Of a stretch of 47,452 bases of DNA, positions 11,829 through 33,010 are shown in pieces. The position numbers were made by a program, and so were the translations under genes. This DNA comes from Prevotella sp. Its GTDB lineage: Bacteria; Bacteroidota; Bacteroidia; Bacteroidales; Bacteroidaceae. Each line of letters opens with the position of its first letter. Positions within the stretch are counted from its first letter, which is position 1. Under the pieces are notes generated by a model that searched no databases, was not told the origin of the DNA, and saw nothing but the letters and a program-made list of their open reading frames with translations. The DNA lies in contig JAFWQT010000126.1 of the NCBI GenBank assembly GCA_017508965.1, positions 1 to 47,452 of the forward strand, given 5' to 3'.

Positions 11829-11847
11829 AGAATAGGAGACTTGAATT

Positions 11848-14013
<2,166 letters not shown>

Positions 14014-15599: not shown

Positions 15600-15642
15600 C
15601 CGACGACTCGCACTGAGCAAAGTGTGAGTCGTCGGCTTTTCT
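15600..15642 (+). terminator. Terminator of the barrel gene
   Basis: CCGACGACTCGCACT (15600-15614) pairs with AGTGTGAGTCGTCGG (15621-15635) with one G.U pair, followed by CTTTTCTG. Confidence 0.9.
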
Positions 15643-16341: not shown

Positions 16342-16373
16342 TTTGTTTGAATAGTTGTTTTTGTTTATCTTTG
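16342..16373 (+). promoter_or_regulatory. Promoter of the SusC/SusD operon
   Basis: TTTG at 16342-16345, exactly 20 bases, then TATCTTTG at 16366-16373: a full match to the Bacteroidetes housekeeping promoter. It is the only good promoter seen for the ten genes up to 30981. Confidence 0.8.
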
Positions 16374-16417
16374 CATCTGTATTGACAGAAAACCTAAAGA
16401 TAAATATAGTTTTTTTT

Positions 16418-19400
16418 ATGAAAAGACGAATCGTAGCGTTGTTAGCGTTCGTGTTCCTTTTGATAGGTGGGGCTTTGGCCCAGACGAAAGTTAGCGGAAT
16501 AGTTGTTTCCCAAGATGATGGCGAACCTGTCATCGGTGCTTCTGTGGTTGTTGAGGGACAGAAGACGGGTGTTATAACCGATATTGACGGTCGTTTCACC
16601 ATCGAGGCAGTCTCTGGCAAGAAACTCGTTGTGAGCTATATCGGCATGGAAACGGCGACGGTGGCTCCCAAGAACGGCATGCGGGTGGTGCTCGCGTCCA
16701 ACTCTGAGGTGCTCGAAGACGTCGTTGTCACGGGAATGCAGAAAATGGACAAGCGATTGTTTACAGGTTCCTCGACGAAGCTGAGCGGCGAGAATGCCAA
16801 GCTCGACGGTGTGGCCGACGTCAGCCGCGCCCTGGAAGGCCGTGCCGCCGGTGTGAGTGTGCAGAATGTGAGCGGAACGTTCGGTGCCGCTCCGAAGATT
16901 CGTGTGCGTGGCGCCACCAGTATCTACGGCTCGTCCAAGCCGCTGTGGGTGGTCGATGGCGTGATTATGGAAGATGTGGTCGAGGTGGCAGCCGACGATT
17001 TGGCCAGCGGCGATGCCAATACGCTGATTTCGAGTGCCATTGCCGGTTTGAACTCAGACGACATCGAGAGTTTCCAGATTCTCAAGGACGGTTCGGCCAC
17101 CTCTATCTATGGTGCGCGCGCCATGGCCGGTGTGATTGTGGTGACCACCAAGAAAGGCAAGGCCGGACAGAACCGCATCAACTACACGGGCGAATATACC
17201 ATGCGATTGAAACCCAGCTATGCCACGTTCAACATCATGAATTCGCAAGACCAAATGTCGGTCTATCAGGAACTGCAGCAGAAAGGCTACCTCAACTATG
17301 CTGAGACGGCCAACGCTTCGGAGACGGGCATCTACGGCAAGATGTACCAGATGTTGAGCCAATACGACCCCGTGTCGCGCACATTTGCGCTCGACAACAC
17401 CGACGAGGCCATCGCCAACTATCTGCGGGCCGCCGAATGGCGCAACACCAACTGGTTCGACCTGCTCTTTTCCAATTCCATTCAGCACACCCACTCGGTG
17501 TCGATGTCGGGCGGTTCGGACAAGGCGCAGTATTATGCATCGGTCAGTGCCATGTTCGACCCGGGATGGACACGCCAGAGCGAGGTGGAACGCTATACGG
17601 CCAACATGAACGCCAACTTCAACATCTCGAAGAAAGTTTCGCTGGGTGTCATCTCGAATGCGTCGTACCGCAACCAAAAGGCTCCCGGCACATTGAGCCG
17701 CGCCACCGATGTGGTGACGGGCACCGTTACGCGCTCGTTCGACATCAACCCCTACAGCTATGCGCTCAACTCGAGCCGCGCACTCGACCCCGATGCCTTC
17801 TACACACGCAACTACGCCCCCTTCAACATCTTCCACGAGCTGGACAACAACTTCATCGACCTGAACGTGGTGGACTTCCGCTTGCAGGGCAAACTCACGT
17901 TCAAGCCCATCACCAAGGTGGAGCTGACGGCTCTGGGCGCAGTGAAATATTCTGCCACCACCCAGGAGCACAGCATTCTGGACAATTCGAACCAGGCATT
18001 GGCCTATCGCGCCATGGACACTTCGACCATACGCGGCGCCAACCGCTATCTCTATACCGACCTCGACAACATCTATGCGCTGCCAGTATCGATACTGCCC
18101 GAGGGTGGTATTCTGGAGCGCAGCGACAATCGCATGTTCGGCTATGACTTCCGTGGCTCGGTGGGGTACAACGATGTGTTCAACGACACCCACATCGTGA
18201 ACGCCTACGGCGGTATGGAGGTGAACTATGTGAACCGCCACGCCACTTGGAACCGCGACTGGGGCCTGCTATTCGACGACGGTGAAATCTCGTCGTTCAA
18301 CTATTTGGCCTTCAAGCAGATGTCGGAGCGCAACAACAGCTACTATTCGCTGGGCAACACCCGCGAGCGCAGCGTGGCCTTCTTTGCCAACGCCACCTAC
18401 TCGTACAAGGGACGCTACACCATCAACGGCACCTACCGCTATGAGGGCACCAACCGTTTGGGCAAGAGCCATTCGGCCCGCTGGCTGCCCACGTGGAATG
18501 TGTCGGGCGCATGGAACGTTCACGAAGAGCCTTGGTTTGCCAAGCTGCAGCCCGCCATGACGAGTCTGACGCTGAAAGCGTCTTACTCGCTCACCGCCGA
18601 CCGCGGTCCTGCCAACGTGACCAACTCCACCAACATCCTGACCTCGCTGTCGCCTTGGCGCCCCTTCACGAGTGTGAAAGAAAGTGCCATCGGACTCTCG
18701 CAGCCAGGCAACCCCGAACTGACCTACGAGAAGAAACACGAGCTGAACCTCGGCCTGGAGTCGAGCTTCCTCGACGGGCGCATCAGCTTAGGGTTCGACT
18801 GGTACAAGCGCAACAACTTCGACCTGATAGGCCCCACCTTCACCGCAGGCTATTCAGGCGGTGTGCTGCAGTATGCCAATGTGGCCGAGATGAAGTCGAG
18901 CGGCGTGGAGGTGAGTATTTCTACGGTCAACGTGAAGAACCAGAACTTCTCGTGGACCACGAGCCTCATCTACTCGCACACCAGCAACGAGGTGACCAAG
19001 CTGCAGTCGGCCGAACGACTCATCGACCTTGTGGCAGGCAGCGGCTTCACGCTGGCAGGCTATCCCGTGCGCTCCATTTTCTCCATCCCCTTTGTGGGGC
19101 TGAACCGCGAGGGACTTCCCACTTTCCGCGTGGGCAACGGTTATACCACCGTCACCGACATCTACTTCCAGGAGACGGAACCCAGCGAGCTGGAATTTCT
19201 GGAGTATTCGGGCAGCGCCGAGCCTACCGACATGGGTAGCCTTGGCAACATCTTCAAATGGAAAGGCTTTACGCTCAATATCTACATGACCTACTCGTTT
19301 GGCAACATCATTCGTCTCGACCCCGTGTTCTCCAGCCATTACAACGATTTGGTGGCCATGCCCAAGGAATTCAAGAACCGATGGATGGTGCCCGGCGACG

Positions 19401-19738
19401 AGCAGTACACCGACATTCCCGTCATTGCCAGCACACGGCAGAACCGCAACGACACCAACCTGAGCTACGCCTACAGTGCCTACAACTATTCTACGGCGCG
19501 CATCGCCAAGGGCGACTTCGTGCGCATGAAGGAAATCTCCATTGGCTACGATTTCCCGAAAAACATGATTTCGAAAATCGGTCTCACCACGCTCGGACTG
19601 AAGTTGCAGGCCACCAACCCCTTCCTCATCTACAGCGACAAGAAACTCAACGGACAGGATCCGGAGTTTACCAATTCGGGTGGTGTGGCTGTTCCCATGC
19701 CAAAACAGTTCACCATGACGCTGAGAATTGGTTTGTAA
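16418..19738 (+). CDS. SusC/RagA-family TonB-dependent outer-membrane transporter
   Basis: A 1106-residue transporter. A signal peptide (1-22) is followed by a carboxypeptidase-regulatory-like domain (about 25-100, with the usual GVITDIDGRFTI), a TonB-box-like segment EDVVVTG near 98, the plug domain (about 115-240, with VRGATSIYGSSKPLWVVDGV and ATSIYGARAMAGVIVVTTKKG) and the barrel to the C-terminus. SusC proteins import bulky ligands delivered by the SusD lid. The start at 16418 fits the promoter and signal peptide; an earlier frame start overlaps the promoter. Its partner susD follows after 47 bases. The gene is clearly richer in G+C than its upstream flank. The ligand is unknown, and no sugar enzymes accompany it. 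Confidence 0.95.
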   Translation: MKRRIVALLAFVFLLIGGALAQTKVSGIVVSQDDGEPVIGASVVVEGQKTGVITDIDGRFTIEAVSGKKLVVSYIGMETATVAPKNGMRVVLASNSEVLEDVVVTGMQKMDKRLFTGSSTKLSGENAKLDGVADVSRALEGRAAGVSVQNVSGTFGAAPKIRVRGATSIYGSSKPLWVVDGVIMEDVVEVAADDLASGDANTLISSAIAGLNSDDIESFQILKDGSATSIYGARAMAGVIVVTTKKGKAGQNRINYTGEYTMRLKPSYATFNIMNSQDQMSVYQELQQKGYLNYAETANASETGIYGKMYQMLSQYDPVSRTFALDNTDEAIANYLRAAEWRNTNWFDLLFSNSIQHTHSVSMSGGSDKAQYYASVSAMFDPGWTRQSEVERYTANMNANFNISKKVSLGVISNASYRNQKAPGTLSRATDVVTGTVTRSFDINPYSYALNSSRALDPDAFYTRNYAPFNIFHELDNNFIDLNVVDFRLQGKLTFKPITKVELTALGAVKYSATTQEHSILDNSNQALAYRAMDTSTIRGANRYLYTDLDNIYALPVSILPEGGILERSDNRMFGYDFRGSVGYNDVFNDTHIVNAYGGMEVNYVNRHATWNRDWGLLFDDGEISSFNYLAFKQMSERNNSYYSLGNTRERSVAFFANATYSYKGRYTINGTYRYEGTNRLGKSHSARWLPTWNVSGAWNVHEEPWFAKLQPAMTSLTLKASYSLTADRGPANVTNSTNILTSLSPWRPFTSVKESAIGLSQPGNPELTYEKKHELNLGLESSFLDGRISLGFDWYKRNNFDLIGPTFTAGYSGGVLQYANVAEMKSSGVEVSISTVNVKNQNFSWTTSLIYSHTSNEVTKLQSAERLIDLVAGSGFTLAGYPVRSIFSIPFVGLNREGLPTFRVGNGYTTVTDIYFQETEPSELEFLEYSGSAEPTDMGSLGNIFKWKGFTLNIYMTYSFGNIIRLDPVFSSHYNDLVAMPKEFKNRWMVPGDEQYTDIPVIASTRQNRNDTNLSYAYSAYNYSTARIAKGDFVRMKEISIGYDFPKNMISKIGLTTLGLKLQATNPFLIYSDKKLNGQDPEFTNSGGVAVPMPKQFTMTLRIGL

Positions 19739-19785
19739 GGCAGAATGTTGAAAGAAGAAAGTTCACATAACACAAAGATATTCAC

Positions 19786-21399
19786 ATGGAAAAGCTAAAT
19801 TGCCATAATATTATAAATAAGGTGAAACACACCGCGGCGACGGTTTGCCTGCTGGCAGGCGCGCTGATGCTGGCTGCTTGCGACAGCTATCTCGACGAAC
19901 TGCCCGACAACCGCATGGAGCTGACCTCGCTCGAGAAGGTGAACAAGCTGCTTACCTCGTCTTACATCACGTCGGCACCCATGCTCGTGGCCGAATACAT
20001 GTCTGACAATGTTGACAGCTACGGACTGACCAATCCCAATTCTTCGCGTTTCGTTGACCAAGTGTATGGATGGATGGACGTGACCGAAGCCAACAACGAG
20101 AGTCCCGAAATGTTTTGGGAGGCTGCCTATTCGACCATAGCCTCGGCCAATCTGGCACTCGAGGCCATCGACCAACTGGGCGGAGCCACCACAACCGAAA
20201 CCCGTCAGGCAAAAGCCGAGGCTCTGCTTTGCCGCGCTTACACCCATTTCATGCTGGTCAATCTGTTCTGCCATGCCTACAACACCCAAACCAGCCAACA
20301 GGACCTGGGCATTGTCTATATGACGAAGAGTGCCGACGAACTGACCATCAATCCGGAGCGCAGCACCGTGGCTCAGGTCTATGAGCAGATTGACCGCGAC
20401 CTGCAGGAAGCCCTGCCCATGGTGGGGTCCAACTACAGTGTGCCCAAATACCATTTCAACGAGAAGGCTGCCTATGCCTTCGCCGCCCGTTTCTACCTCT
20501 ATTACGAGCAGTGGGACAAGGCGTTGAACTATGCCAACCTATGCTTGGGCAGCGCGCCCCAGGCAATGCTTCGCGACTGGAAGGTAATGGCTGGCATGAC
20601 GCAGACGTTTGCTGCCCTGTCGCAGCACTACATCGACGCGTCGCTCAACTGCAACCTGCTCTTGCTCACCGCCTATTCGGCCATGGGCATCGTCTTCGGC
20701 CCCTACAACTATCTCTCGCGCTATGCCCACGGTAAATACCTGGCAAGCCACGAGGACGGCGAAGCGCCGAACATCTGGGGCAGTGCCAGCTACTATCAGG
20801 GCATGCACACCTATGCTGCCACCAATCTGGACAAGAGCATCTTCTTCAAGTTGCCTTATCTGTTTGAGTATTATGATGCCGTGGCGGGCACGGGCTTTTA
20901 CCGCACGGTCTATCCTGCCTTCACCGCCGACGAATGCCTGCTCAACAGAGCGGAGGCATACGTGCTCACTGGAAAATACGACCAGGCTGCCGCCGACTTG
21001 ACCGTCTGGATGCAGAACGTGGTGAATACTGACCTGGTGCTCACACCCGAAAACATTACCGAGTTCTACAACAGCGTTGACTACTCGTACAGCGATGCAA
21101 AGGGCATCAAATCAACCATCAAGAAGCACCTGCATCCCAAGTTCGACATCGGCAGCGAAGGCGAAGTCAAGGAGGCCATGCTGCAGTGTGTGCTGGGCTT
21201 CCGCCGCATAGAGACGTTGCAGGCCGGATTGCGGTGGTACGACGTGAAACGCTATGGCATAGAGATTGTCCGCCGCGTCATAGGTGCCGACGGCGAACCC
21301 GAATCGCTGACCGACGTGCTGAGAGTTGACGACCCGCGCCGCGCCGTTCAGATTCCTCTGAAGGTACGTGCCGCCGGAGTGGTGGCCAATCCCAGGTAA
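19786..21399 (+). CDS. SusD/RagB-family surface lipoprotein
   Basis: A 537-residue lipoprotein with lipobox LAAC (Cys32) and the alpha-helical SusD fold. The N-terminal domain contains CDSYLDELPDNRMEL and EMFWEAAYSTIASANLALE, and the tetratricopeptide-like repeats include AKAEALLCRAYTHFMLVNLF. It should sit on the cell surface as the lid of the SusC transporter encoded just upstream. It belongs to the subgroup that travels with zinc metallohydrolase lipoproteins rather than glycosidases. The next gene begins 48 bases later on the same strand. Confidence 0.92.
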   Translation: MEKLNCHNIINKVKHTAATVCLLAGALMLAACDSYLDELPDNRMELTSLEKVNKLLTSSYITSAPMLVAEYMSDNVDSYGLTNPNSSRFVDQVYGWMDVTEANNESPEMFWEAAYSTIASANLALEAIDQLGGATTTETRQAKAEALLCRAYTHFMLVNLFCHAYNTQTSQQDLGIVYMTKSADELTINPERSTVAQVYEQIDRDLQEALPMVGSNYSVPKYHFNEKAAYAFAARFYLYYEQWDKALNYANLCLGSAPQAMLRDWKVMAGMTQTFAALSQHYIDASLNCNLLLLTAYSAMGIVFGPYNYLSRYAHGKYLASHEDGEAPNIWGSASYYQGMHTYAATNLDKSIFFKLPYLFEYYDAVAGTGFYRTVYPAFTADECLLNRAEAYVLTGKYDQAAADLTVWMQNVVNTDLVLTPENITEFYNSVDYSYSDAKGIKSTIKKHLHPKFDIGSEGEVKEAMLQCVLGFRRIETLQAGLRWYDVKRYGIEIVRRVIGADGEPESLTDVLRVDDPRRAVQIPLKVRAAGVVANPR

Positions 21400-21447
21400 G
21401 TGTTAATGCAGAAAGTAAAAAAAACTTCAAAGTAAGACAGAAAAGAT

Positions 21448-22365
21448 ATGACAGTTCAATCCTATCAACTAAAAAGGACGGCAGGGCGATGGTCGCTCCT
21501 GTGTCTGCTTACCGTTTTTCTCTTTGGTTCGTGCAGCGAAGAAGAACTGAGGAAGGAAAGCGTCATTACGGTTGACCAGAACAGCTACACGGAGTTCGAC
21601 TACTGGTTGCAGCGCAACTACGTGGCCGCCTACAACATCCGTTTCAAATACCGCTTTGAGGACATCGAGTCGGACATGAACTATTACACTGTTCCCTCGA
21701 AATACGAAGATGCTGTCAAACTGGCCCATCTGGTGAAGTACATGTGTCTGGAAGCCTACGACGAAGTGGGCGGCATCGACTTCACACGCGCCTATTTCCC
21801 CAAGCTGATTTTCACCATTGGCGAGTGGGAATACCGCAACAATGGTACCTACATTCTCGGCCAGGCTGAGGGCGGACGTAAGATTCTGCTCTCGGGAACC
21901 AACTACCTGAACCGATACCTGAAGAATGCCGAAGAACTCAATGAGTATTATCTCAAGACCATCCACCACGAGTTCACTCACATCATGAACCAGACCAAGG
22001 ACTATTCGGCCGATTTCCAGCTCATCACCGGTACGTCGTATGTGGCCGACAAGTGGAGCGAGGTTCCCTTCGACCAGGGCTACCTGCAACGCGGCTTCAT
22101 CAGTGCCTATGCCCAGCACTCTGACAAGGAAGACTTTGCCGAGATGCTCTCAATGTTTGTCTGCAACTCTGAGCAGCGGTGGGAGCGGTGGATGAACGAA
22201 GCCGGTGCCGACGGCGCCCGACTGATCACTGCCAAGCTCGACATCGTAAAGAGCTACATGCAGAATGCGTTCAACATTGACCTCGAACAGCTTCGTTCGT
22301 CTCTGCAGCGCCGCCAGAAAGAAGTGGTGGAAGGGCGCATCAGCCTTACCGACCTCAGTCTGTAA
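21448..22365 (+). CDS. SusCD-associated zinc metallohydrolase lipoprotein (HExxH)
   Basis: A 305-residue lipoprotein (lipobox FGSC, Cys29) with the zinc-binding motif HHEFTHIMNQ: His174, Glu175 and His178 form HExxH. A later acidic segment DKEDFAEMLSMF (about 226-237) may provide the third ligand. This matches the family described as substrate-import-associated zinc metallohydrolase lipoproteins, found downstream of SusC/SusD pairs. The expected place of action is the cell surface or periplasm, cutting a bound protein or peptide; the actual substrate is not known. Its position directly after susD strongly suggests cooperation in uptake. Confidence 0.88.
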   Translation: MTVQSYQLKRTAGRWSLLCLLTVFLFGSCSEEELRKESVITVDQNSYTEFDYWLQRNYVAAYNIRFKYRFEDIESDMNYYTVPSKYEDAVKLAHLVKYMCLEAYDEVGGIDFTRAYFPKLIFTIGEWEYRNNGTYILGQAEGGRKILLSGTNYLNRYLKNAEELNEYYLKTIHHEFTHIMNQTKDYSADFQLITGTSYVADKWSEVPFDQGYLQRGFISAYAQHSDKEDFAEMLSMFVCNSEQRWERWMNEAGADGARLITAKLDIVKSYMQNAFNIDLEQLRSSLQRRQKEVVEGRISLTDLSL

Positions 22366-22428
22366 CAGGTTTTGCAGCAAGGATTTAAGCAATAATGGAT
22401 TAAGAAATTATAAGCTATTCGTTTTGAA

Positions 22429-23721
22429 ATGAAAAATAATAAATATCTGTTCAGTGTCATTTGTGTAGTCGGTGTCCTGGCGGCCTGTACGCCCAAGGTG
22501 GACGACTATTTCGAGCAGTCGGCTTCGGCTCGTCTGAAAAGCAACATCGACCGTGCCTACCAGATTCTGCGGAGTGCTCCCAATGGGTGGGAATTTGAGT
22601 ATTATCCTGGCACCGACCTGGCCTACGGTGGCATCATCTACACCGTGAAGTTCGATTCGCTCACGGCCACCATCGGTTGTTCGCTGGTGCCCGACTCGGT
22701 GCAGACCACACTCTACAAAATGACCAATGACAACGGACCAGTGCTGACGTTCGATTCGTACAACGACCTGCTTCACTACTACTCAACGCCGAGCAGCATT
22801 GAGTATCAGGGAAAGGAAGGCGAGTTTGAGTTCGTCGTTGACAGTTTGGCCGACGATTTCATCGCTTTGTACGGCAAGAAGACGCGCAACCCCATGTATA
22901 TGCGCAAACTCACGTCAAGCAGCAACGACTATGCCGCCAAGACCGTCAACATCTTCGACCATTTTGTCGATTCCATTCGTGGCGCCATCGGTGGGGTGGA
23001 GGTGAAGGGAAAGTGCATACCCACCAACCGCACCATCAGCCTGACTGTAGGTTCAGACACGATGGACGTGCATTTTGCCTTCACCGACAAGGGCATTCGC
23101 CTCTACAGACCACTGCGGCTGGGAGGACAGACCGTGCAGTCGTTCGCTTTCGACGAGTCAACCAAGCAGCTCACCTGCATCGATCCGGGTTCCGAGAGTG
23201 TCAGCCTGCAGGGCATTCCCTATGCGCCCGACTTCATGAGTTATCCTAAGTATGAAAGCGACTACTCGCTGATTTATGACAATGGTCCCGTCGATGTGCA
23301 TCTCAAGGCCAACCGACTGGAGGGCATCTACGAGATGGAGGGTCTCAGCCCCAGCTACAACCTGAAGCTCCGTTATGACCACATGACGGGCGACCTGAAG
23401 GTCGGCTCGCAGCTGCTGGGCGAGAAAGACGGCAAGTCCATCTACTGGGTTTGCTACGATTATAACCAGGGTTACCTTTCGCTGAACGACGAGGGGCAGT
23501 TCACCATTCGGTGGAACAAGAACCGATTCTATCCGGCCTTCAACTTCAGCGCAACAAATCCCAATGTGCTCAACTGTACGGGCGGTCTGCTCATCTACGT
23601 CTATATTGGCGAAGACGGCAATGCCAAAGCCGAGATTGTGGATGCTTCAGAGTGGATGACCAAAGGCAGCCCGCAGTTTGCCTCGCTGAAAAATTTGAGC
23701 AGGAAGTCGAGATTGGAGTAA
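22429..23721 (+). CDS. DUF4302-type lipoprotein
   Basis: A 430-residue lipoprotein with lipobox LAAC (Cys20). The conserved beginning KSNIDRAYQILRSAPNGWEF followed by beta-rich sequence is the pattern of DUF4302 proteins, which occur in SusCD-type loci of Bacteroidales. No catalytic motif is visible. A surface-exposed ligand-binding accessory lipoprotein is the most economical reading. It lies 63 bases after the metallohydrolase gene and 34 before the BACON gene. Confidence 0.82.
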   Translation: MKNNKYLFSVICVVGVLAACTPKVDDYFEQSASARLKSNIDRAYQILRSAPNGWEFEYYPGTDLAYGGIIYTVKFDSLTATIGCSLVPDSVQTTLYKMTNDNGPVLTFDSYNDLLHYYSTPSSIEYQGKEGEFEFVVDSLADDFIALYGKKTRNPMYMRKLTSSSNDYAAKTVNIFDHFVDSIRGAIGGVEVKGKCIPTNRTISLTVGSDTMDVHFAFTDKGIRLYRPLRLGGQTVQSFAFDESTKQLTCIDPGSESVSLQGIPYAPDFMSYPKYESDYSLIYDNGPVDVHLKANRLEGIYEMEGLSPSYNLKLRYDHMTGDLKVGSQLLGEKDGKSIYWVCYDYNQGYLSLNDEGQFTIRWNKNRFYPAFNFSATNPNVLNCTGGLLIYVYIGEDGNAKAEIVDASEWMTKGSPQFASLKNLSRKSRLE

Positions 23722-23755
23722 GTCTTAGTAAAAAAGCAGTAAATAAAACGAATCT

Positions 23756-24838
23756 ATGAAGATAAAGAAGATAACAATCATGCTCAGCCTTCTGTCGGGG
23801 GCATTGGTGCTGGCTTCGTGCAGCAAAGACGAACTGACGGGCTACGTTCCGGGCGGCGAGACCATCGAGGTGGTGAAGAACGATTTGCTCTTTGATGCCA
23901 AAGAGGGTACGGCCACCGTCGAGGTGAAGGCTTCGGGCACTATTTCGGCATCGGTCAGCTCCGACTGGTGTACGGCCACGGTGAGTGGAAATGTGGTCAG
24001 CGTGAGTGTGCAGGCCAACGAAGGTTTCGAAGGGCGCACCGCCGTCCTGACCATTCGGGCTGAGCAAGGGTCGCGCGAGTTGCCTGTTCAGCAGCGCGGC
24101 ATGGTGTTGGGCCGTTTTTCAGAGCCCAGTCATTATGTGCCCATGGACGGTGGGGCGTTCAGCTATACCATCCGCCACGACCTGCCCATGAGTTTGACTG
24201 CCAGCGCAAGCTGGATTCACACCAATGTGGACGGCGAACTGTTCACCATAAATGTTGACCAAAATACCACAGGCCACCTGCGCCGCGGGTTTGTGGTGAG
24301 CGAGTGCGCGGGCTACCGCGACACGCTGAAGATTGCCCAGTTCGACTTGATGAACGATATTATTGGTTCTTACTACATGATGGGCTATTACGGAGGCGTT
24401 GGCGGCCAGGCCATTGCCATTCGCTTCGATGTGGTGGAACGCAACGACAGCCTGTTCATGCACTGGACCAACGATCCGAATTGGACGGACACCTATTTGC
24501 CCGTCAGTCTGGACCGTGGTACAGCCACGCTCTTCTTCCCCTCGGCCATGCGCCTTTACAACAGTGGGGGCAACAGTGATGTGGCTTTCTTCTACGACAC
24601 CAACGGTACCGTGTGTACGTCGTCGGCCTCGGGGGCTAATGCTTTTCTCGAGTACAATCCGACAACGGGTTTCAACAGTGCTCGGCTGACGGCAGGCAAC
24701 TGGCCCGGCCACACTTTGGGAGGATTCATCATCCGGTCTTCGCGTGGCAATGGGCTGGTGGTTCAGAACCTGCTTCAGATGGCCGAACCCGTCATCATGC
24801 GTGTTGGACCCGAAGGCACCACAATCAGCGACGACTGA
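23756..24838 (+). CDS. BACON-domain surface lipoprotein
   Basis: A 360-residue lipoprotein (lipobox LASC, Cys22). Residues about 35-120 look like a BACON domain: a beta-sandwich with VSSDWCTATVSGNVVSVSVQ, then AVLTIRAEQGSRELPVQQRG. A second beta-rich repeat (about 125-200) resembles another such module. The C-terminal 160 residues form an unidentified domain. BACON domains bind glycans or mucin-type glycoproteins, or act as spacers, on the Bacteroidetes surface. No catalytic motif is seen. It is the fifth gene of the operon and may help to hold a glycoprotein or protein ligand. Confidence 0.8.
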   Translation: MKIKKITIMLSLLSGALVLASCSKDELTGYVPGGETIEVVKNDLLFDAKEGTATVEVKASGTISASVSSDWCTATVSGNVVSVSVQANEGFEGRTAVLTIRAEQGSRELPVQQRGMVLGRFSEPSHYVPMDGGAFSYTIRHDLPMSLTASASWIHTNVDGELFTINVDQNTTGHLRRGFVVSECAGYRDTLKIAQFDLMNDIIGSYYMMGYYGGVGGQAIAIRFDVVERNDSLFMHWTNDPNWTDTYLPVSLDRGTATLFFPSAMRLYNSGGNSDVAFFYDTNGTVCTSSASGANAFLEYNPTTGFNSARLTAGNWPGHTLGGFIIRSSRGNGLVVQNLLQMAEPVIMRVGPEGTTISDD

Positions 24839-24925
24839 CAGGCAGTAGAGCCTGTTGCGAATGCAGGCAGACGAGCAAAAATGATTTTAAAGAAACACTT
24901 GAAGTAAACAACAAAAAAGAAAAAC

Positions 24926-25414
24926 ATGAAAAAGCTATCTTTGATGCTTATGTTGCTGGTAGTGGTTGTAGCAACCGCCCATGCACAAAAACTCCCGTCG
25001 GTAACGCTCAAGACCATTGATGGCCGAACGGTGCAAACCGACACGTTGTCGAACAACGGACGCCCCTTCATCATCGACTTCTTTGCCACGTGGTGCAAGC
25101 CCTGCAACCGCGAGCTGAATGCCATTCACGAGGTCTATGAAGAATGGCAGAATGAAACAGGTGTGAAAATCTTCGCCGTCAGCATTGACCAGGCGCAGAA
25201 CATCAACAAGGTGAAGCCCTTGGTTGACTCCTACGGATGGGAATACGACGTGCTGCTCGATCCCAACGGCGACCTCAAACGAGCGTTGGGAGTGCAAATG
25301 ATTCCCTACGTTCTCATTGTAGATGGGCAGGGAAACATTGCCTATAAACACAATGGCTACACCGATGGAGCCGAGAACGAACTTATAGAAAAAGTGCGCG
25401 AACTGATAAAATAA
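24926..25414 (+). CDS. TlpA-like periplasmic thioredoxin-fold protein
   Basis: A 162-residue exported protein: signal peptide 1-20 (cut after AHA) and a complete TlpA/ResA-type thioredoxin fold with FFATWCKPCNREL, active-site Cys57 and Cys60. A cis-proline-type segment MIPYVLIVDGQGNIAYKHNG follows near 126-145. WCKPC differs from the more oxidising WCxHC motifs of DsbA and fits a reductase role in the periplasm. The gene sits inside the SusCD operon with two Omp28-type thioredoxin proteins, which points to thiol-disulfide handling of the imported ligand or of the surface proteins. Confidence 0.9.
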   Translation: MKKLSLMLMLLVVVVATAHAQKLPSVTLKTIDGRTVQTDTLSNNGRPFIIDFFATWCKPCNRELNAIHEVYEEWQNETGVKIFAVSIDQAQNINKVKPLVDSYGWEYDVLLDPNGDLKRALGVQMIPYVLIVDGQGNIAYKHNGYTDGAENELIEKVRELIK

Positions 25415-25427
25415 AAAAACAATAGAA

Positions 25428-27065
25428 TTGAATAAAAGATTAGTTGTCTTTACGATGAGCCTGCTCGTTGTTATGTTGCTGAACGCACAGACCGAGCAGA
25501 AGGGTATCACGCTGAGTGGAAGCATTCAGAGCGATATTCTTTTTCCGCAGGCGGATGAGACCATCGGCTCTCCCGACTACAAGGAAGATGTGCTGACCAA
25601 CACTTACGCCGAGTTGCATCTGCAAAGTCAGTATGTAGATGCGGGGGTACGTTTCGAGTATTTGGAGCACCCGCTGCCTGGCTTCGAAAACGATTTTAAG
25701 GGCTGGGGCGTTCCCCATTTCTATGCCAAAGGCCATATTAAGAATGCTGAGCTCACACTGGGCGACTTTTACGAGCAGTTTGGCTCAGGGTTTATTCTGC
25801 GTTCTTACGAAGAGCGCAGTCTGGGCATCGACAATGCCTTGCGCGGGGGCCGGCTGATGGTGAAACCCTTCAAAGGGCTTACTCTTAAAGCGCTTGCCGG
25901 CAAGCAGCGCCGTTATTGGGAACACTCCAAAGCGTTTATCATGGGTGCCGACGCACAATATGATCTTGTGCTCGCGCCTCAGGCCTCAAAGCCTGTGTAT
26001 CTGAGCCTTGGGGCTTCGTTTGTCAACAAGCACGAGAAAGACGAGGAGATTCTTGTTGATGCCACCCGTCGGCTCAACCTGCCTAAAGATGTGCAGGCAT
26101 TCGATGTGCGTGCCAATTTCCAGCGTGGAGGATGGAGCGTGTTGGCAGAATATGCCCAGAAGACGCAAGACCCCTGTTTTGACAACGGCTATATCTATCG
26201 TCCAGGCTATGTGGCCATGCTCTCTGCCAGCTATTCGCAGCGGGGCATGAGCCTTCTGGTGCAGGCAAAGCGCAGCGACAACATGTCGTTCCGCAGCCAG
26301 CGTTCCATCAGCGGCACATCGGCCATGATCAACCACCTGCCTGCTTTCACCATGGAGCATACCTACGATCTGGCGGCTCTTTATCCCTATGCCACCAATC
26401 CCGACGGCGAATGGGCCTATCAGGCCGAAATGGCATATACGTTCAAGAAGAACACTGCCCTGGGCGGGCGCTACGGCACCAAAGTGAAAGTCAACTTCTC
26501 GCATGTTCACTGCCTCAACACAGAGCCGCGGCCACTCGACAACATGACAATGGGCAGCAATGGCTATGCCTCGTCGTTCTGGAAGTGGGGCGACACGATG
26601 TATTATCAGGACTTGAACTTCCAAATTGATAAGAAACTCACCAAGAACCTACAGCTGAACCTCATGTATATGAATCAGTTCTACAACATGACTGCAATTG
26701 AAGGTAGTGGTGGAATGATTCACAGCGACATTGTTGTGGGCGAAGCCAAATACCGCTTAAATAATAAGTTTACGTTGCGTGGTGAGGCCCAGTATCTGTT
26801 CAGCAAAGACCATGATGGCGACTGGGCTTTTGGCCTGCTCGAACTTTCGGTCAATCCTCACTGGATGTTCACCGTAAGCGATGAGTATAATGTAGGCAGC
26901 ACCCACATCCACTATTACATGGGCAGCGTTACATTCAGTACTGGTGCCCATCGTCTGCAAGCTTCTTATGGCCGCACCCGTGAGGGCTTCAACTGCTCGG
27001 GTGGTGTGTGCCGGTATGTCCCTGCCACCAAGGGATTGACGTTGTCGTATAATTATAATTTCTGA
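25428..27065 (+). CDS. DUF6029-type outer-membrane-associated protein
   Basis: A 545-residue exported protein with beta-strand-rich sequence and an aromatic C-terminus (LSYNYNF), consistent with an outer-membrane barrel. The opening section (SGSIQSDILFPQADE, then YAELHLQSQYVDAGVRFEY) matches the DUF6029 type often found next to TlpA and Omp28 genes. The start is an uncommon TTG at 25428, which gives a proper signal peptide (MNKRLVVF...LNAQ). The first ATG (25455) would remove the basic n-region. The gene starts 13 bases after the thioredoxin gene. The function is unknown; a scaffold or pore for Omp28-type proteins is a guess. Confidence 0.78.
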   Translation: MNKRLVVFTMSLLVVMLLNAQTEQKGITLSGSIQSDILFPQADETIGSPDYKEDVLTNTYAELHLQSQYVDAGVRFEYLEHPLPGFENDFKGWGVPHFYAKGHIKNAELTLGDFYEQFGSGFILRSYEERSLGIDNALRGGRLMVKPFKGLTLKALAGKQRRYWEHSKAFIMGADAQYDLVLAPQASKPVYLSLGASFVNKHEKDEEILVDATRRLNLPKDVQAFDVRANFQRGGWSVLAEYAQKTQDPCFDNGYIYRPGYVAMLSASYSQRGMSLLVQAKRSDNMSFRSQRSISGTSAMINHLPAFTMEHTYDLAALYPYATNPDGEWAYQAEMAYTFKKNTALGGRYGTKVKVNFSHVHCLNTEPRPLDNMTMGSNGYASSFWKWGDTMYYQDLNFQIDKKLTKNLQLNLMYMNQFYNMTAIEGSGGMIHSDIVVGEAKYRLNNKFTLRGEAQYLFSKDHDGDWAFGLLELSVNPHWMFTVSDEYNVGSTHIHYYMGSVTFSTGAHRLQASYGRTREGFNCSGGVCRYVPATKGLTLSYNYNF

Positions 27066-27148
27066 GCGTGGCGTAGGGTGATAGGAATGGAGTTGAGAAG
27101 GAGTTGAGAAGGAACGAAAGCGAGGAAAACATTGAAAAGTAAAAGAAC

Positions 27149-27958
27149 ATGAAACATGTGACACTTATATTTGCGTTCTGTCTGACGGCGTTGTGTGCTT
27201 GCAACAACATCGGCGAGGACGAACGTTACATTATAGTAGAATCAACCACACCGCCAGGCGGCGAGGTGAAGCAGATGCGCCGTGTGCTGATAGAGGATTT
27301 CACGGGTCAGCGTTGCATTAACTGTCCGAATGCGGCCGATGAGATTGAGCGTCTGAAAGAATCCTACGGAGCCGACTCAATCATTGCCGTTGGCATTCAT
27401 GGCGGCGACCTGGCTTTCAAGAGTACAGAGAGACTGCTCGGCCTGCGCACCGACCTTGGCGACGAATACAACAGCTACTGGAAAGTGGAGGCTTGGCCCC
27501 AGGGACTCATTAACCGCAGCGGCTCGTTGGCCAACATCGACCAGTGGTTCACTTTGGTCAGCCAGGCACGCAATCTGCAGGCGCCCCTGAGCATCGAGGT
27601 GGCGGGCTCTTACGACGAAACATCCCGTCAGCTTGCCATAAATGTTAAGGCCAATGCCTTTGAGAACGTCAGTGGAAAGTTGCAGCTTTGGCTCACCGAG
27701 AGCGGCATTGTAGCCATGCAGTCGATGCCCGATGGAACCAACAACCGTGAGTATGTTCACAACCATGTGTTGCGCGCTGCTGTCAATGGAGCCTGGGGCG
27801 AGAATTTCAGTGCCATTCAGGGACAAGAGCTCAGCATTCAGCAACGTTTTACCATTGAGCCTTCGTGGCAGCCCTCAAAGATGAGTGTCGTGGCTTTTGT
27901 CTATAACGACCAGGGGGTGTTGCAGGTGGTTGAAAAAGAGATAGAGATGGGGCAATAA
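27149..27958 (+). CDS. Omp28-related lipoprotein with thioredoxin-like CxxC
   Basis: A 269-residue lipoprotein (lipobox ending LCAC, Cys18) of the Omp28 family. The thioredoxin-like part begins VLIEDFTGQRCINCPNA, with Cys56 and Cys59, followed by an Omp28 C-terminal beta-domain (about 145-269). Omp28 was named as an outer-membrane antigen of Porphyromonas and its biochemical role is not settled. Here it follows the DUF6029 gene by 83 bases and precedes a second, longer Omp28-type protein. A short low-complexity tract of AATAACC-type repeats (27957-27990) separates the two. Confidence 0.85.
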   Translation: MKHVTLIFAFCLTALCACNNIGEDERYIIVESTTPPGGEVKQMRRVLIEDFTGQRCINCPNAADEIERLKESYGADSIIAVGIHGGDLAFKSTERLLGLRTDLGDEYNSYWKVEAWPQGLINRSGSLANIDQWFTLVSQARNLQAPLSIEVAGSYDETSRQLAINVKANAFENVSGKLQLWLTESGIVAMQSMPDGTNNREYVHNHVLRAAVNGAWGENFSAIQGQELSIQQRFTIEPSWQPSKMSVVAFVYNDQGVLQVVEKEIEMGQ

Positions 27959-27990
27959 CCAATAAACAATAACCAATAACCAATAAACAA
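27957..27990. repeat. Short AATAACC-type tandem repeat
   Basis: Four imperfect copies of CAATAAAC/CAATAACC between two Omp28-type genes, of the kind that litters Prevotella intergenic DNA. Confidence 0.6.
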
Positions 27991-28012
27991 GAAATAAGAC
28001 AATTAACAATAA

Positions 28013-29485
28013 ATGAAAAAAGTGCTTATGAAAAGAATTATTACCACCTTGATGATGGTGCTTGGCTTTGTTTTCACAGCCATGGCCCAGTCTGCACAAT
28101 TCTATTACAAAGGAAGTCCTCTTGCCGAAGGTGCCTCCATTATCGTAGAGGCCGAGGAAGATGACTGGGGTGATTTGAATTGTGAAACCAACCCTGCTGG
28201 CAGCAAGGATAACGGACTCATTCTGAAAAATCTCACCAGCGAAGAACTCAAAGGAGTGGCTACACTGACCATCAACACCAATACCTTGTCCCCCTCGCGC
28301 ATTCAGTGGTGCATGGGTGGACAGTGCGTTCAGATTAAAGAAACGCCTTATAATAAAGATTTTGTAGTTCCTGCAAGTGGATACATACAGGTTCAGTTCG
28401 ATGCCATTCCTACCGTTTTCGGTGAGTTGGAAGCCGAAATCAAGGCTCGCATAGGATTGAAGAACACTACTGTAAAAGTGAAGTTTGTTTACAAAGATCC
28501 CAATGCCAAACCTGCCTTCACAAGGCGCGCCGTGGTGGAGGAGTTCACAGGCACCTGGTGCGGCAACTGTCCGCGTGGCATTGTTGCCTTGCAGCGACTT
28601 GCTCAGGATTTTGGTGACCGCGTCATCTGCATTGCCGTGCATCAGGGTTCAGAAGAGCCCATGCAAATTGCCACCTATCCCGAATTGGTGCCGGGCACGG
28701 GAGGCGTTCCTGCCTGCATGGTCAACCGTGGTCCGAAACTTGATCCCTACAGCGGGTCGGGCACCAATGGCTATTACCATTATGGCATTGATGCTGACGT
28801 GGAAGCCGCACTCAACGAGCCTGCCGAGGCTGGCATTGAGCTGACTGCACAGTGGAACGATGCCAATTTGTGGGACGTGCGTTTTACCACCACCACCACT
28901 TTTGGTATCGACTCCAACGATGCACCTTACCGGTTGGCGTTTGTTCTTCTTGAAGACGGCTTGAAAGGCGAGGGCAAGAACTGGGTACAAAAGAACTATT
29001 TCTCCATAGCTGCCGGCTACGATGACAGCAAAAATTATGTTGACGACGACATGAAGTACTGGCGCGAAGCTCCCTATGAGGTGAAGGGCGTAGAGTACAA
29101 TCACGTGGCTGTACAGTCGCTGGGCATCAAAAATGGCATCAACGGAAGTATTTCATCGCCCATTGTGAAAGATAAGCCCCAGACATACAGCGGGCTGGTG
29201 ACTACGCTCAATAACAAGGTTATTCAAGACAAGTCGAACCTCTCGGCCGTGGCCATGCTGATGGACACCCGCACGGGCAAGATTGTGAATGCAGTGAAAA
29301 CCGCAGTTCTTCCCTACGGCACTAACGGCATTGAGACTATTAAAGACGAAAGATTAAAGATGAAAGATTCGCCGGTTTACGACCTGCAGGGACGCAAAGT
29401 ACAAAGTTCAAAGTTCAATGCTCAAAGTTCAAAGCTACCTAAGGGCATCTATATCCTGAACGGAAAGAAATTTGTCATGAAATAA
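28013..29485 (+). CDS. Secreted Omp28/thioredoxin protein with C-terminal sorting tail
   Basis: A 490-residue protein: signal peptide (about 1-26, cut after AMAQ), an N-terminal beta-domain (30-165), then a thioredoxin-like domain with VVEEFTGTWCGNCPRG (Cys183, Cys186), a beta-domain, and a tail of about 50 residues (VYDLQGRKVQSS ... LPKGIYILNGKK) resembling a type IX secretion (type A) sorting signal. An extra pair Cys100/Cys105 (WCMGGQC) lies before the active site. The stretch just before the tail, IKDERLKMKD and QSSKFNAQSSK, is encoded by low-complexity repeats shared with the gene at 31079. The start may be the ATG at 28013 or the one at 28028. Confidence 0.85.
   Translation: MKKVLMKRIITTLMMVLGFVFTAMAQSAQFYYKGSPLAEGASIIVEAEEDDWGDLNCETNPAGSKDNGLILKNLTSEELKGVATLTINTNTLSPSRIQWCMGGQCVQIKETPYNKDFVVPASGYIQVQFDAIPTVFGELEAEIKARIGLKNTTVKVKFVYKDPNAKPAFTRRAVVEEFTGTWCGNCPRGIVALQRLAQDFGDRVICIAVHQGSEEPMQIATYPELVPGTGGVPACMVNRGPKLDPYSGSGTNGYYHYGIDADVEAALNEPAEAGIELTAQWNDANLWDVRFTTTTTFGIDSNDAPYRLAFVLLEDGLKGEGKNWVQKNYFSIAAGYDDSKNYVDDDMKYWREAPYEVKGVEYNHVAVQSLGIKNGINGSISSPIVKDKPQTYSGLVTTLNNKVIQDKSNLSAVAMLMDTRTGKIVNAVKTAVLPYGTNGIETIKDERLKMKDSPVYDLQGRKVQSSKFNAQSSKLPKGIYILNGKKFVMK
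29330..29396 (+). repeat. 67-base inverted repeat, left copy (inside Omp28-type gene)
   Basis: Positions 29330-29396 are identical to the reverse complement of 31189-31255. The repeat covers the IETIKDERLKMKDSPVYDLQGR-coding part of both sorting tails, including the AAAGATGAAAGATT-like low-complexity core. Confidence 0.9.
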
Positions 29486-29532
29486 AATCAATACATTAAC
29501 TAAATAAAAATATAAAAAAGAAAGGATTATCA

Positions 29533-30981
29533 ATGAAAAAGAAAAAAGCATTTTGCAAATTTCCGTTTTTGCTGTTTTCCCTTTTGTTCGTTTTCGGCCA
29601 AAAGGTGATGGCACAAGATGAAATCGACTTCACCGGCTATGCCAACGTGTGGTACACTCTCAAGGTAGTCAATGACAATGGTGGTAAAATATGCGCTACT
29701 GCCAGTCAGTCGGGCTTGAAGACTTGGACCTCTACCAAGAAAGAGTGGTCTCAAACCGTCGAGACGGGCCAGCTGATGGGCGTTGATGTCTTCTTGTTCT
29801 ATTTGTTTGCTCAGGTAGATACCTCAAACGGATACATTTTTGGCGGATGGTATTCTGATGATGGAGACGGCAAGTTTGACATCACTAAGGACGAGCTGCT
29901 TAGTGGCGATGTAGAATACCTCATGATAGTTCCGCTCAGCGAAGGAACCCCTGTCTATGACACCCAGGCACAGGCCAAATCGGGCGCTAAGCCCCAATCC
30001 ACCATGGGTACTATCTTCGCACTCTTCACCCGCGGAGCCTCAATAGGTCTTTCCTATCATCAGGACGAGACTTGGGCCAACTGCGGCTCTGTCTTTGTTG
30101 ACAAGCCTGTCAATGAGCCTGGCGACGTTGTCACTGCCCGTGCGCTGCCCAACGACGGTTTCACTTTCCAATATTGGAAGAGCGGTTATGAGCCTGGCGA
30201 TGGTGAGGTTATCAGTTACGACAATCCCTATACCTTTACCGTTCAGGGTGGCGAGAAAGTCTATGCCTACTTTACCGACAACGAGGCACCCTCTTTCGAG
30301 ATGCCGGCAGAAGGTGGCTATAGAGTGGAGTTGTTGGAAAAGACCTGGACTCTCAGCGATGAGTCCATCAAGGATGGTGCTTGCATTTTGAATCTCGAGG
30401 CAGAGGACTTGGTTCTCAGCAATGGTAAAGCTTATCTCCAGCCACCAGGCTACGATGTTGAGAATGTTTGGTCGGTTGTGTCTCACGACAGGTATGCCCC
30501 GACATTGCTCTATGGAAAGGGAGCAATTAGTTTCGCCTTCAATTTCGGATATGGTTTTGGCCGTAAGCAGTCGTCAGAAACACTGATAAAATGGAGTGGC
30601 AGCCAGGGCACAGAGGTGAAAGGCAATGGCACTCCGGTATATGTTTATGTGTTCAGCAATAATCTGGGAGCCTTTGTTCAGTATGGTAACACCGACACGA
30701 TGGTCAACCCCAATGCGCCGTCGAGTGTAAAAGTACCTGCCAACTATGCTTATTTTTCGATGCTTGCCTACGACCTGGCCGACTCCTCAGGCAACATTCC
30801 CATGGCCATCGGCCTGTCGCCTGAGTCATACGACTATGCCATTGCCGGCATTTCTCCCACACAGCTTTCGCCCGTCAATGTGAAGGGCACAAAGATGTAC
30901 TCGCTCAGTGGTGTGGAAGTGAAAACAACCAGTCAGAAGGGTGTTTTCATTGTCAATGGCAAGAAAATAGTTATCAAGTAG
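29533..30981 (+). CDS. Secreted beta-rich protein with sorting tail, last gene of operon
   Basis: A 482-residue protein with a signal peptide (about 1-27, VMAQ) and beta-rich sequence. Residues about 185-255 (GDVVTARALPNDGFTFQYWKS ... KVYAYFTD) look like a divergent InlB B-repeat/Listeria-type repeat module. An acidic stretch SDDGDGKFDITKDE near 110-123 could bind calcium. The end (MYSLSGVEVKTTSQKGVFIVNGKKIVIK region) is a sorting-tail-like sequence akin to that of the upstream Omp28 protein. No enzyme motif is seen. It closes the operon before the bidirectional terminator at 31015-31058. Confidence 0.75.
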   Translation: MKKKKAFCKFPFLLFSLLFVFGQKVMAQDEIDFTGYANVWYTLKVVNDNGGKICATASQSGLKTWTSTKKEWSQTVETGQLMGVDVFLFYLFAQVDTSNGYIFGGWYSDDGDGKFDITKDELLSGDVEYLMIVPLSEGTPVYDTQAQAKSGAKPQSTMGTIFALFTRGASIGLSYHQDETWANCGSVFVDKPVNEPGDVVTARALPNDGFTFQYWKSGYEPGDGEVISYDNPYTFTVQGGEKVYAYFTDNEAPSFEMPAEGGYRVELLEKTWTLSDESIKDGACILNLEAEDLVLSNGKAYLQPPGYDVENVWSVVSHDRYAPTLLYGKGAISFAFNFGYGFGRKQSSETLIKWSGSQGTEVKGNGTPVYVYVFSNNLGAFVQYGNTDTMVNPNAPSSVKVPANYAYFSMLAYDLADSSGNIPMAIGLSPESYDYAIAGISPTQLSPVNVKGTKMYSLSGVEVKTTSQKGVFIVNGKKIVIK

Positions 30982-31014
30982 AAAGCCTTGCTGTTGCTGC
31001 TTGGCAACTAAACT

Positions 31015-31058
31015 GAAGGAGGCCGTCCTAAGTGAACATCTCAAGGGCGGCCTCCTTC
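31015..31058. terminator. Terminator between convergent genes
   Basis: GAAGGAGGCCG (31015-31025) pairs with CGGCCTCCTTC (31048-31058), with extra pairing inside. It serves the SusCD operon and possibly the facing gene at 31079. Confidence 0.85.
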
Positions 31059-31078
31059 TGTTGCTTTTGTGCGTTCGT

Positions 31079-33010
31079 TTACTTGATGGCCACTTTCTTT
31101 CCGTTCATCAGGTAGATGCCCTTGGGTAACTTTGAGCTTTGAGCATTGAACTTTGAACTTTGAGCATTCGGCATTGAACTTTGAACTATGCGTCCCTGCA
31201 GGTCGTAAACCGGCGAATCTTTCATCTTTAATCTTTCGTCTTTAATAGTCTCAATACCGTTGGTACCGTAGCGCAGCACGTTGGCTTTGGCAGCGTTGGC
31301 AATAGTGCCTGTCCGGGTGTCCAGCAGCATGGCCACGGCATAAAGCTTGTTCTTGTCCTGCACCAGTGCGTTGCTGCCCAGATTCATGTCATAGACGTAG
31401 TGCTGCGCCTCTCCACATTTAAGGGGAACCGTAATGCTGCCTTCCAGCCCCTTGTTGATGCCCGCCACGGCAATGGCCACGTGGTTGTATTCCATGTTGA
31501 TACGGCGCGGCCCAAAGACGTATTCACTCAGGTCGTCATCATAGCCTTCGTCCTCCTTTCCGTAGAGTCCGTTCACTTGTAGCCATTCATCTCCATCGCC
31601 TTTCAGTCCGTTGGCCGTCATCACTAGAATCAGCTTGTAAGGCGAATTGTCGGCACTATAGCCAAAGGTGGTGGCCACGTCAATTTCCACGGTCTTTTCC
31701 TCTGCGTCTTTCCATCGTGCACTCACCTCCATGTCGGCGGTGGCCATTTGCTGGAGCGATTGCTCTACCAGCAGGCCGGTGGTGAAATGCTTCTGATAGA
31801 TGTTGTCGCCCAGATAGGGGTCACAGTCTATGAGCCTATCGATGCTTGCCGATGGCACGCCCGTTGCGGCTGCCCGCTTCTTGATGTCGCTGTTGGCATA
31901 TTCTCTCAGTATCATGGGGTCCTCGCCCGTACTGCCCGTATGTACGGCTATGCCAATGAAACGGTCGCCAAACTGTTCCTCCAGCATGTGCATGCCCTTG
32001 ATGCCTCTCACGCAGTTGGGGCACCACGAGCCGGTGAATTCCTCCATCACCGCACGCTTCAGTGCTTTCTTCTGCAGCACAATCAACTCGCCGTCAGCCT
32101 TCCGGCTGTCGCTTTGGTTGGCTTGTCCGTCGGCCTTGGTGATTTCCAATTCATATTTGTAGAGTCTCGCTTCGGCCGGAATACTCAGGGGTATGAGCAC
32201 CTTTCGTGTCAGCCCCAGTTCGTTGATGGGTTTCTCCAGGTTGAGTCGCTTTTCAGCATCTTTGCCCGTCCCTGTGCGCACCATGTAGTCGATGTTGCTG
32301 AAGGGCTTCGTGCCCCAGTTGGTGAGGGTGGCCTCGAGCGCCGTTTCGGCCGTGCCCTTCATCACCACCATCTCGCCCAGGTTGGCCACGTCGATGGCAA
32401 CCGGTTTCAGCGTTCCGCCGCTCACCAGCAACTGCATGGCCAGCGCGCCGTAGCTCTTCTCCAGGTTGGTGGTCCATCCGTAGATGTTCGAATTGTCTTT
32501 CACGTCGTCGCGTTTGCCTGACGCCAGCATGTCGCAGGCGTTGTCCTCGGCCATGGTCAGCGTGAATCCCGCATAGACGCTGGCGTAGCGGTTCGAACTG
32601 GGAAGGGGGGTGTAGGGCTCGTCGAAGAGCACCTCTGTGGGGGCGCCGTCGTGCAGTTGGTCGCGCAGCTGGCTGACGGGAATCTCCTTGATGCACACGT
32701 CGGCGGCGTCGTTTTTGAAGGTTTTCACAGAGAGCCACACCTTGGCTGCCGTCACCTTAGTCTTGTCGCTGATGTAGAACCTCAGTCCCTGCACTTGGCA
32801 GTCTTTCAGTTCGGTCTGGTTGTAGGCCAGCAGGCGTATCGCGCACGTGTTGTCGCCTTGGGCGAACGAGCCGACGGGGGTGAGCCCCATGTCAGAGTTC
32901 CACATTCCCCACCATGCCTGTCCGTTCTGAGGGGTCACTTGTGCATTGGTGTAGAGCGTTGCCAGGAGCAGCAGCGCCACAGATAGTAATTTTGCTCTAA
33001 ATTTCATCAT
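31079..33010 (-). CDS. Third Omp28/thioredoxin secreted protein with sorting tail
   Basis: A 643-residue paralogue of the 28013 protein with a longer N-terminal part. It has a signal peptide (about 1-23, TNAQ), a beta-rich domain (about 30-310), a thioredoxin-like domain with VMEEFTGSWCPNCVRG (Cys330, Cys333), a beta-domain, and a sorting tail ending PKGIYLMNGKKVAIK. The linker before the tail contains QSSMPNA and QSSKFNA, so it has one more seven-residue repeat than its paralogue. It faces the operon across a shared terminator and has its own promoter element. ATGs at 33010 and 33007 are both possible starts. Confidence 0.85.
   Translation of the reverse strand: MMKFRAKLLSVALLLLATLYTNAQVTPQNGQAWWGMWNSDMGLTPVGSFAQGDNTCAIRLLAYNQTELKDCQVQGLRFYISDKTKVTAAKVWLSVKTFKNDAADVCIKEIPVSQLRDQLHDGAPTEVLFDEPYTPLPSSNRYASVYAGFTLTMAEDNACDMLASGKRDDVKDNSNIYGWTTNLEKSYGALAMQLLVSGGTLKPVAIDVANLGEMVVMKGTAETALEATLTNWGTKPFSNIDYMVRTGTGKDAEKRLNLEKPINELGLTRKVLIPLSIPAEARLYKYELEITKADGQANQSDSRKADGELIVLQKKALKRAVMEEFTGSWCPNCVRGIKGMHMLEEQFGDRFIGIAVHTGSTGEDPMILREYANSDIKKRAAATGVPSASIDRLIDCDPYLGDNIYQKHFTTGLLVEQSLQQMATADMEVSARWKDAEEKTVEIDVATTFGYSADNSPYKLILVMTANGLKGDGDEWLQVNGLYGKEDEGYDDDLSEYVFGPRRINMEYNHVAIAVAGINKGLEGSITVPLKCGEAQHYVYDMNLGSNALVQDKNKLYAVAMLLDTRTGTIANAAKANVLRYGTNGIETIKDERLKMKDSPVYDLQGRIVQSSMPNAQSSKFNAQSSKLPKGIYLMNGKKVAIK
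31189..31255 (-). repeat. 67-base inverted repeat, right copy (inside third Omp28-type gene)
   Basis: This is the mate of 29330-29396, in opposite orientation and about 1.8 kb away, in the same position of a paralogous gene. Confidence 0.9.

Follow-up and report, generated by a model that had tools for sequence, protein, structure and literature searches.

Organization of the locus

The window analyzed here is a stretch of 47,452 nucleotides (nt) from Prevotella sp. (contig JAFWQT010000126.1). It contains a run of ten open reading frames (ORFs), all on the + strand between 16418 and 30981 and with intergenic spacings of 13–87 nt (Table 1), which include a conserved core (SusC, SusD, a zinc metallohydrolase and DUF4302) and a module that is separate from that core (TlpA, DUF6029 and Omp28). 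The parts are of known kinds; their combination is uncommon, and one of the families, DUF6029, possesses a striking site.

The ORFs are preceded by an exact match to TTTG-N20-TATCTTTG, which we take to be the Bacteroidota-type promoter consensus. Shuffles predict 0.69 occurrences of this pattern in the window, which has six. When the 300 nt upstream were mononucleotide-shuffled 5000 times, 32 of the shuffles had it within the last 110 nt. At the other end the region 31005–31075 folds at −35 kcal/mol (z = −6.6), far better than its shuffles. A consensus terminator scan did not include the hairpin at 31015–31058 among its matches, nor did it list any + strand terminator in the gaps between the ten genes. 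The ten genes are presumably cotranscribed. Another strong terminator-like hairpin (window 15600–15635) follows the outer-membrane protein gene which precedes the operon.

The ten genes, promoter and terminator of a preliminary description of this DNA are thus real and lie nearly where it had placed them. Pfam and NCBIfam also agree with the families that it named, except that the Omp28 match of gene 9 and the sorting tails of genes 9 and 10 fall below cut-off. Its statement that the operon lacks a glycosidase holds: none of the ten proteins matches a glycosidase family (Pfam, E ≤ 0.1), and the carbohydrate-active enzyme by which a polysaccharide utilization locus is recognized is therefore wanting among them.

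Table 1. Features of the operon and its convergent neighbor
Feature	Coordinates	Strand	Basis
Promoter, TTTG-N20-TATCTTTG	16342..16373	+	exact pattern match
SusC/RagA TonB-linked transporter (gene 1)	16418..19738 (ATG 16418)	+	TIGR04056 1.9e-187
SusD-like lipoprotein (gene 2)	19786..21399	+	PF14322 (SusD-like_3) 1.2e-37
Zinc metallohydrolase lipoprotein (gene 3)	21448..22365	+	PF15890 (Peptidase_Mx1), TIGR04549, 2e-100
DUF4302 lipoprotein (gene 4)	22429..23721	+	PF14135 4.8e-52
BACON lipoprotein (gene 5)	23756..24838	+	PF13004 1e-11; lipobox
TlpA-like thioredoxin (AhpC-TSA; gene 6), WCKPC at 25091-25105	24926..25414	+	Pfam 1.9e-22
DUF6029 protein (gene 7)	25428..27065	+	PF19494 2e-195
Invariant CSGGVCR of DUF6029	26994..27014	+	residues 523-529, TTG start; alignment
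Omp28 lipoprotein (gene 8), CINCP at 27314-27328	27149..27958	+	NF033782 6.2e-91
Gene 9	28013..29485	+	CMGGQC domain 28310-28327; Omp28/thioredoxin-like WCGNCP 28556-28573; weak type IX tail
Gene 10 (secreted; InlB-type repeat)	29533..30981	+	Pfam; C-terminal tail by eye
Terminator hairpin between convergent genes	31015..31058	.	folding vs shuffles
Convergent paralogue of gene 9, outside the operon	31079..33010	-	48% over 334 aa

The SusCD-metallohydrolase core

ORFs were called in 160 stretches besides the window, namely 80 named loci (the best 80 of at least 589 relatives, by resemblance to the window) and 20 each of phylum metallohydrolase, family metallohydrolase, phylum DUF6029 and family DUF6029 loci; in the resulting counts some species may occur twice, and some loci end at contig ends. 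SusD lies directly upstream of 128 of the 130 metallohydrolase ORFs, and SusC plus SusD precede 127. DUF4302 is the next gene in 128/130 and is followed by BACON in 90/130. The conserved core is SusC-SusD-metallohydrolase-DUF4302, and it is to this extent that the gene order of the preliminary description is kept across relatives; the ten-gene set is not.

Above cut-off, TIGR04549 occurs in 22 of 395 phylum genomes and PF15890 in 67 of 251 genomes of the window's family. The metallohydrolase family is also present in 20 of 249 genomes of lineage f6 and 60 of 196 of the distant lineage f10, and the four core genes keep their order in 18/18 additional f6 loci; in L226, the sole one of these 18 scanned further, a Porin_10 barrel comes next after the core. 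In L105 and L207 the five-gene core is present twice in one stretch, as complete copies that converge. A TAnnTTTG element was found in 63 of 118 upstream regions, a count which has no chance control.

Gene 3 belongs to the TIGR04549 family (335.3 bits against a cut-off of 75) and has the HExxH motif as HEFTH (21967–21981), together with EDFAE (22129–22143); CSEEE follows its lipobox. Residues H174, E175, H178, E228 and D229 are invariant in 21 sequences, and its solved relatives are 9urd and 4l7a. The BACON lipoprotein bears CSKDE, a surface-export-type signal according to the consensus in the excerpted part of PMC5080379. A structure search gave no useful solved relative for DUF4302 or BACON, and an STN domain was not among the Pfam/NCBIfam hits of SusC.

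What extends this core in other genomes was tallied with Pfam and NCBIfam for 97 of 101 non-core extension proteins, four having been dropped for size or duplication. The commonest Pfam family was Peptidase_S8 (subtilisin-type; nine proteins), and M6 peptidase occurred twice; NCBIfam gave type IX tails in 11, Omp28 in eight and the PorV family in seven. Clustering placed an S8 cluster in 12 stretches and a PorV-like partner cluster in 12, partly outside the operon, their identities being taken from one representative each and the PorV match being weak. An extracytoplasmic function (ECF) sigma factor and a FecR protein are present in 12–13 stretches. The earlier claim that the accessories are peptidase-like, redox or binding proteins is borne out for such loci as a tendency: S8 and M6 peptidases recur among the extensions, and the redox module is found next to the core in three different arrangements. 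In rumen Bacteroidales (L108 13460–17025 and similar loci) the core is extended by a PorV-like protein and by a subtilisin whose type IX tail is weak.

The TlpA-DUF6029-Omp28 module

Above its cut-off, DUF6029 occurs in 96 genomes of the phylum set (395 genomes) and in 71 of the family set (251 genomes). Among 46 DUF6029 loci, chosen partly for presence of the metallohydrolase, a TlpA with WCxPC or TCxPC lies directly upstream in 39, and an Omp28 with CxxC no more than three genes downstream in 38. In distant loci (18 resolved of 20) a WCxxC gene is upstream in 17/18 and a CxxC gene adjacent downstream in 11/18. Thirteen of 14 relatives' genomes carry one copy of DUF6029 and the other none. 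In eight of the nine stretches that were read around DUF6029, TlpA-DUF6029-Omp28 stands apart from the core; the remaining one, from the genome of L058, is the core operon. TlpA-DUF6029-Omp28 is a module separate from the core.

Based upon the partial text of PMC9603273, which suggests a role in polysaccharide secretion, DUF6029 is presumably an outer-membrane barrel; the TlpA-like thioredoxin would be periplasmic. Gene 8 is an Omp28 lipoprotein (NF033782, 304.3 bits against a cut-off of 150). A literature search on thiols and the outer membrane listed no paper naming Omp28.

The striking site is a cysteine pair near the carboxyl terminus of DUF6029, residues 523/528 when counted from the TTG start (545 residues) or 514/519 from the ATG (536-residue reading). 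The pattern C-x-G-G-[VI]-C is present in 44/44 aligned sequences and C-x-x-G-[VI]-C in 18/18 distant sequences chosen by position (two of 20 unresolved), so that the CxxG[VI]C pair occurs in 62/62 unfiltered sequences; 20 of the 64 sequences in the larger set were picked with the motif as filter and are excluded from that count. The 64 show six fully invariant columns, five of which are G511, C514, G517, C519 and G527 (ATG numbering), at identities to the window's protein as low as 15%. In porins the loop that precedes the final strand is by convention extracellular, and the pair probably lies in this last extracellular loop.

The TlpA-DUF6029 pair also stands beside other SusC-SusD genes (L178 8000–19901 and L179 5796–16844), with no metallohydrolase hit in either stretch. 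In L178 the company of SusC and SusD is joined by an S8 peptidase and a PorV-like protein. The three genes after TlpA-DUF6029 have CxxC and bear Omp28-type labels in both stretches; the 'Omp28T' label also took in matches to the tail alone and was not counted in favor of an Omp28 domain.

Genes 9 and 10 and the flanks

Gene 9 reaches 49.9 bits with NF033782 (cut-off 150) and is thus not an Omp28 lipoprotein by this model, although it has a 51-residue stretch in common with Omp28. Its tail scores 18.7 bits with TIGR04183 (cut-off 23) and 16.5 with PF18962 (cut-off 27). Gene 10 gave no sorting-tail hit with Pfam or NCBIfam, its tail being visible by eye only. The genome does possess a type IX system marker, PorV (216 bits).

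Gene 9 was aligned with 19 small proteins of the window's family which follow Omp28, most of them tailed (alignment A3). Four of 23 candidates were omitted, L187, L188 and L196 because they look unrelated and L167 as a near-duplicate. The invariant residues are two cysteines and one methionine (20/20), and the cysteines are separated by four residues in 17 of the 20 and by five or six in L163, L166 and L080. In a profile search of solved structures the best hits were type IX tails, and PorA (6KJK) was unlisted up to E 10. We therefore rejected the small proteins as PorA homologs, there being no match to the solved PorA N-terminal domain.

Tandem 14-nt repeats of the AACTTTGAGCATTG type occur at 31128–31183 and 29395–29436 and encode a QSSKFNA linker preceding the tails of the convergent paralogue and gene 9. 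At these repeats lie inverted copies of 210 nt (83% complementary) and 85 nt (86% complementary), which suggest a recent exchange. Elsewhere in the window are RNase P RNA (RF00010, 3169–3540) and a methylmalonyl-CoA mutase pair (9969–14013).

Comparison with known systems

The core resembles the published iron capture system (Ics) of Capnocytophaga canimorsus and Riemerella anatipestifer, in which SusC, SusD and a TIGR04549-named gene are adjacent and in the same order (PMC5429918, in part), a likeness of genes 1–3 that rests on family name and gene order and not on sequence alignment. The third gene there, B739_0101 (icsE), is named substrate import-associated zinc metallohydrolase (TIGR04549), and DUF4302 here occupies the position of IcsF. 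The excerpt of that paper does not mention a thiol module, whereas one is part of the present operon.

Peptide import by a SusCD pair is known from RagAB. HBP35 of Porphyromonas gingivalis is said to be an exported thioredoxin with thioredoxin activity, as the title of a cited paper has it. We know of no metallohydrolase or shared operon for either.

A resemblance to gene 9, by description, lies in Paraprevotella 00502, an 'Omp28-related' trypsin-recruiting protein of the type IX secretion system (PMC9477747, in part). Product name and type IX tail are alike; 00502 is WD40 plus Ig.

Interpretation

We tentatively favor, at somewhat short of an even chance, a composite operon in which genes 1–5 take up a protein or protein-bound nutrient and are joined to genes 6–8, an envelope thiol module. 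The operon probably handles proteins and not sugars, because an uptake set with an iron-capture relative is joined to a redox set. The SusD, DUF4302 and BACON lipoproteins would bind the protein or protein-bound nutrient at the surface, the metallohydrolase, presumably a peptidase, would trim or open it, and SusC would import the product. Genes 6–8 would be a single-copy thiol module which this lineage has placed in the core's operon. The thioredoxin-like gene 9 product, which we predict to be exported, might then exchange thiols with a periplasmic TlpA, with the paired cysteines in the DUF6029 barrel and with Omp28. Disulfides in the captured protein, or in the surface complex, would in this way be opened or held in the proper state. 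The families, gene order, motifs, conservation and linkage are shown; we infer where the proteins reside, what the substrate is, what the metallohydrolase does and which way thiols would pass. The preliminary description had proposed a surface machine that captures, reduces, cuts and imports. Disulfide reduction, cleavage and import are plausible as proposals, and the accessory types fit; the ten genes are not one conserved unit, and it missed the likeness of the core to a published iron capture system.

The composite operon draws support from the conservation of the core and of its HExxH and ED residues, from the subtilisin, M6 and PorV-family proteins among the extensions (glycosidases being rare in the families listed), from the motifs and cysteine pairs of the module, gene 9 and the small proteins, from PorV in the genome, from the arrangement in L178 and from linkage of module and core. 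Within the family DUF6029 and the metallohydrolase both occur in 38 genomes (odds 6.0, p 8e-9, uncorrected for phylogeny) and are no more than 15 kb apart in 14 of these (binomial p = 3e-17, likewise uncorrected). The module is downstream of the core on the same strand in two of the 14 (G000 and G423), upstream on the same strand in seven, and upstream and divergent in five.

Several observations weigh against this reading. Genomes within one genus share arrangements, so that independent linkage events are few; the linkage counts are uncorrected for phylogeny. At the scale of the phylum there is no enrichment, DUF6029 being above cut-off in two of 22 metallohydrolase genomes where about five are expected. 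Many genomes have the module without the core, and therefore it needs no SusCD. The exact ten-gene order was seen only in the window and L053 among the loci read. BACON-TlpA-DUF6029-Omp28 occurs in five of the 80 named loci. In six close relatives BACON is followed directly by a gene with the same label as gene 9 and then by gene 10; the module is missing at this locus and lies on another contig of those genomes. Finally, the invariant cysteines may instead form a structural disulfide or bind a metal.

It is quite possible, and nearly as likely as the composite operon, that two unrelated modules share one promoter, the core importing alone while TlpA-DUF6029-Omp28 and the small exported protein form a general surface redox or signalling unit. 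DUF6029 is single-copy in 13/14 relatives and the module stands alone in the eight stretches, as this would have it. PorA of P. gingivalis is comparable in position: PG2172 (PorA) and PG2173 (an Omp28 lipoprotein) are adjacent by number (PMC9722745, in part), so that Omp28 is numbered beside a small type IX-tailed protein, as here. According to PMC7712824, PorA does not depend on the type IX machinery for reaching the surface, and it acts on PorXY-SigP. Against this stand the recurrent linkage (14/38 genomes) and the A3 profile, in which PorA was not found.

A bolder version of the composite operon would make TlpA-DUF6029-Omp28 a Bacteroidota outer-membrane thiol-disulfide relay, in which the barrel's invariant extracellular-loop pair passes redox equivalents between periplasmic and surface thioredoxin-like proteins, feeding a machine that captures, cuts and imports disulfide-rich proteins. 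We consider this doubtful.

Capture of a protein or protein-bound nutrient fits best, and its serious rival is iron capture, in which the core would strip iron off an iron-binding protein; taken as the explanation of the locus it is unlikely. The Riemerella genes B739_0103 to 0098, stated to be icsC-H homologs, rise log2 3.1–3.8 under iron limitation (PMC5429918), and P. intermedia has a BACON, S8 and PorV cassette, similar to the one that adjoins the core in some rumen loci, whose expression goes up 7.8–11.3-fold without iron (PMC10434189, in part). In the same paper, however, BT3958-59 (SusC, SusD) fall 2.6–3.6-fold without iron and BT3961 (DUF4302) 3.2-fold; BT3960 is presumably the metallohydrolase. 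Further points against iron are the metallohydrolase family's presence in 60/196 f10 genomes and the upstream region of susC, where no conserved regulatory box was seen in the printed part of an alignment that covered nine close loci besides the window. The frequency of the family in f10 also makes transferrin an unlikely sole substrate.

An ordinary polysaccharide utilization locus with its glycosidases elsewhere is very improbable: SusC/SusD pairs usually serve glycans, and one glycosidase (GH127) is among the 25 of 90 Pfam families listed for the 97 extension proteins, but this locus, which has SusC/SusD in common with Sus-type loci, carries a metallohydrolase and no glycosidase in its ten genes, and peptidases recur instead. 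GH92 mannosidases may adjoin the B. thetaiotaomicron homolog.

A SusCD locus is by default taken for a sugar system. The class to which the present one belongs is large and has few sugar enzymes, and the one studied relative that we found in it takes iron. The cysteine pair of DUF6029 offers a concrete, testable site in a widespread, functionally unassigned family. We know of no system which delivers redox equivalents to the surface of these bacteria, and a thiol relay, if true, would explain how they get there.

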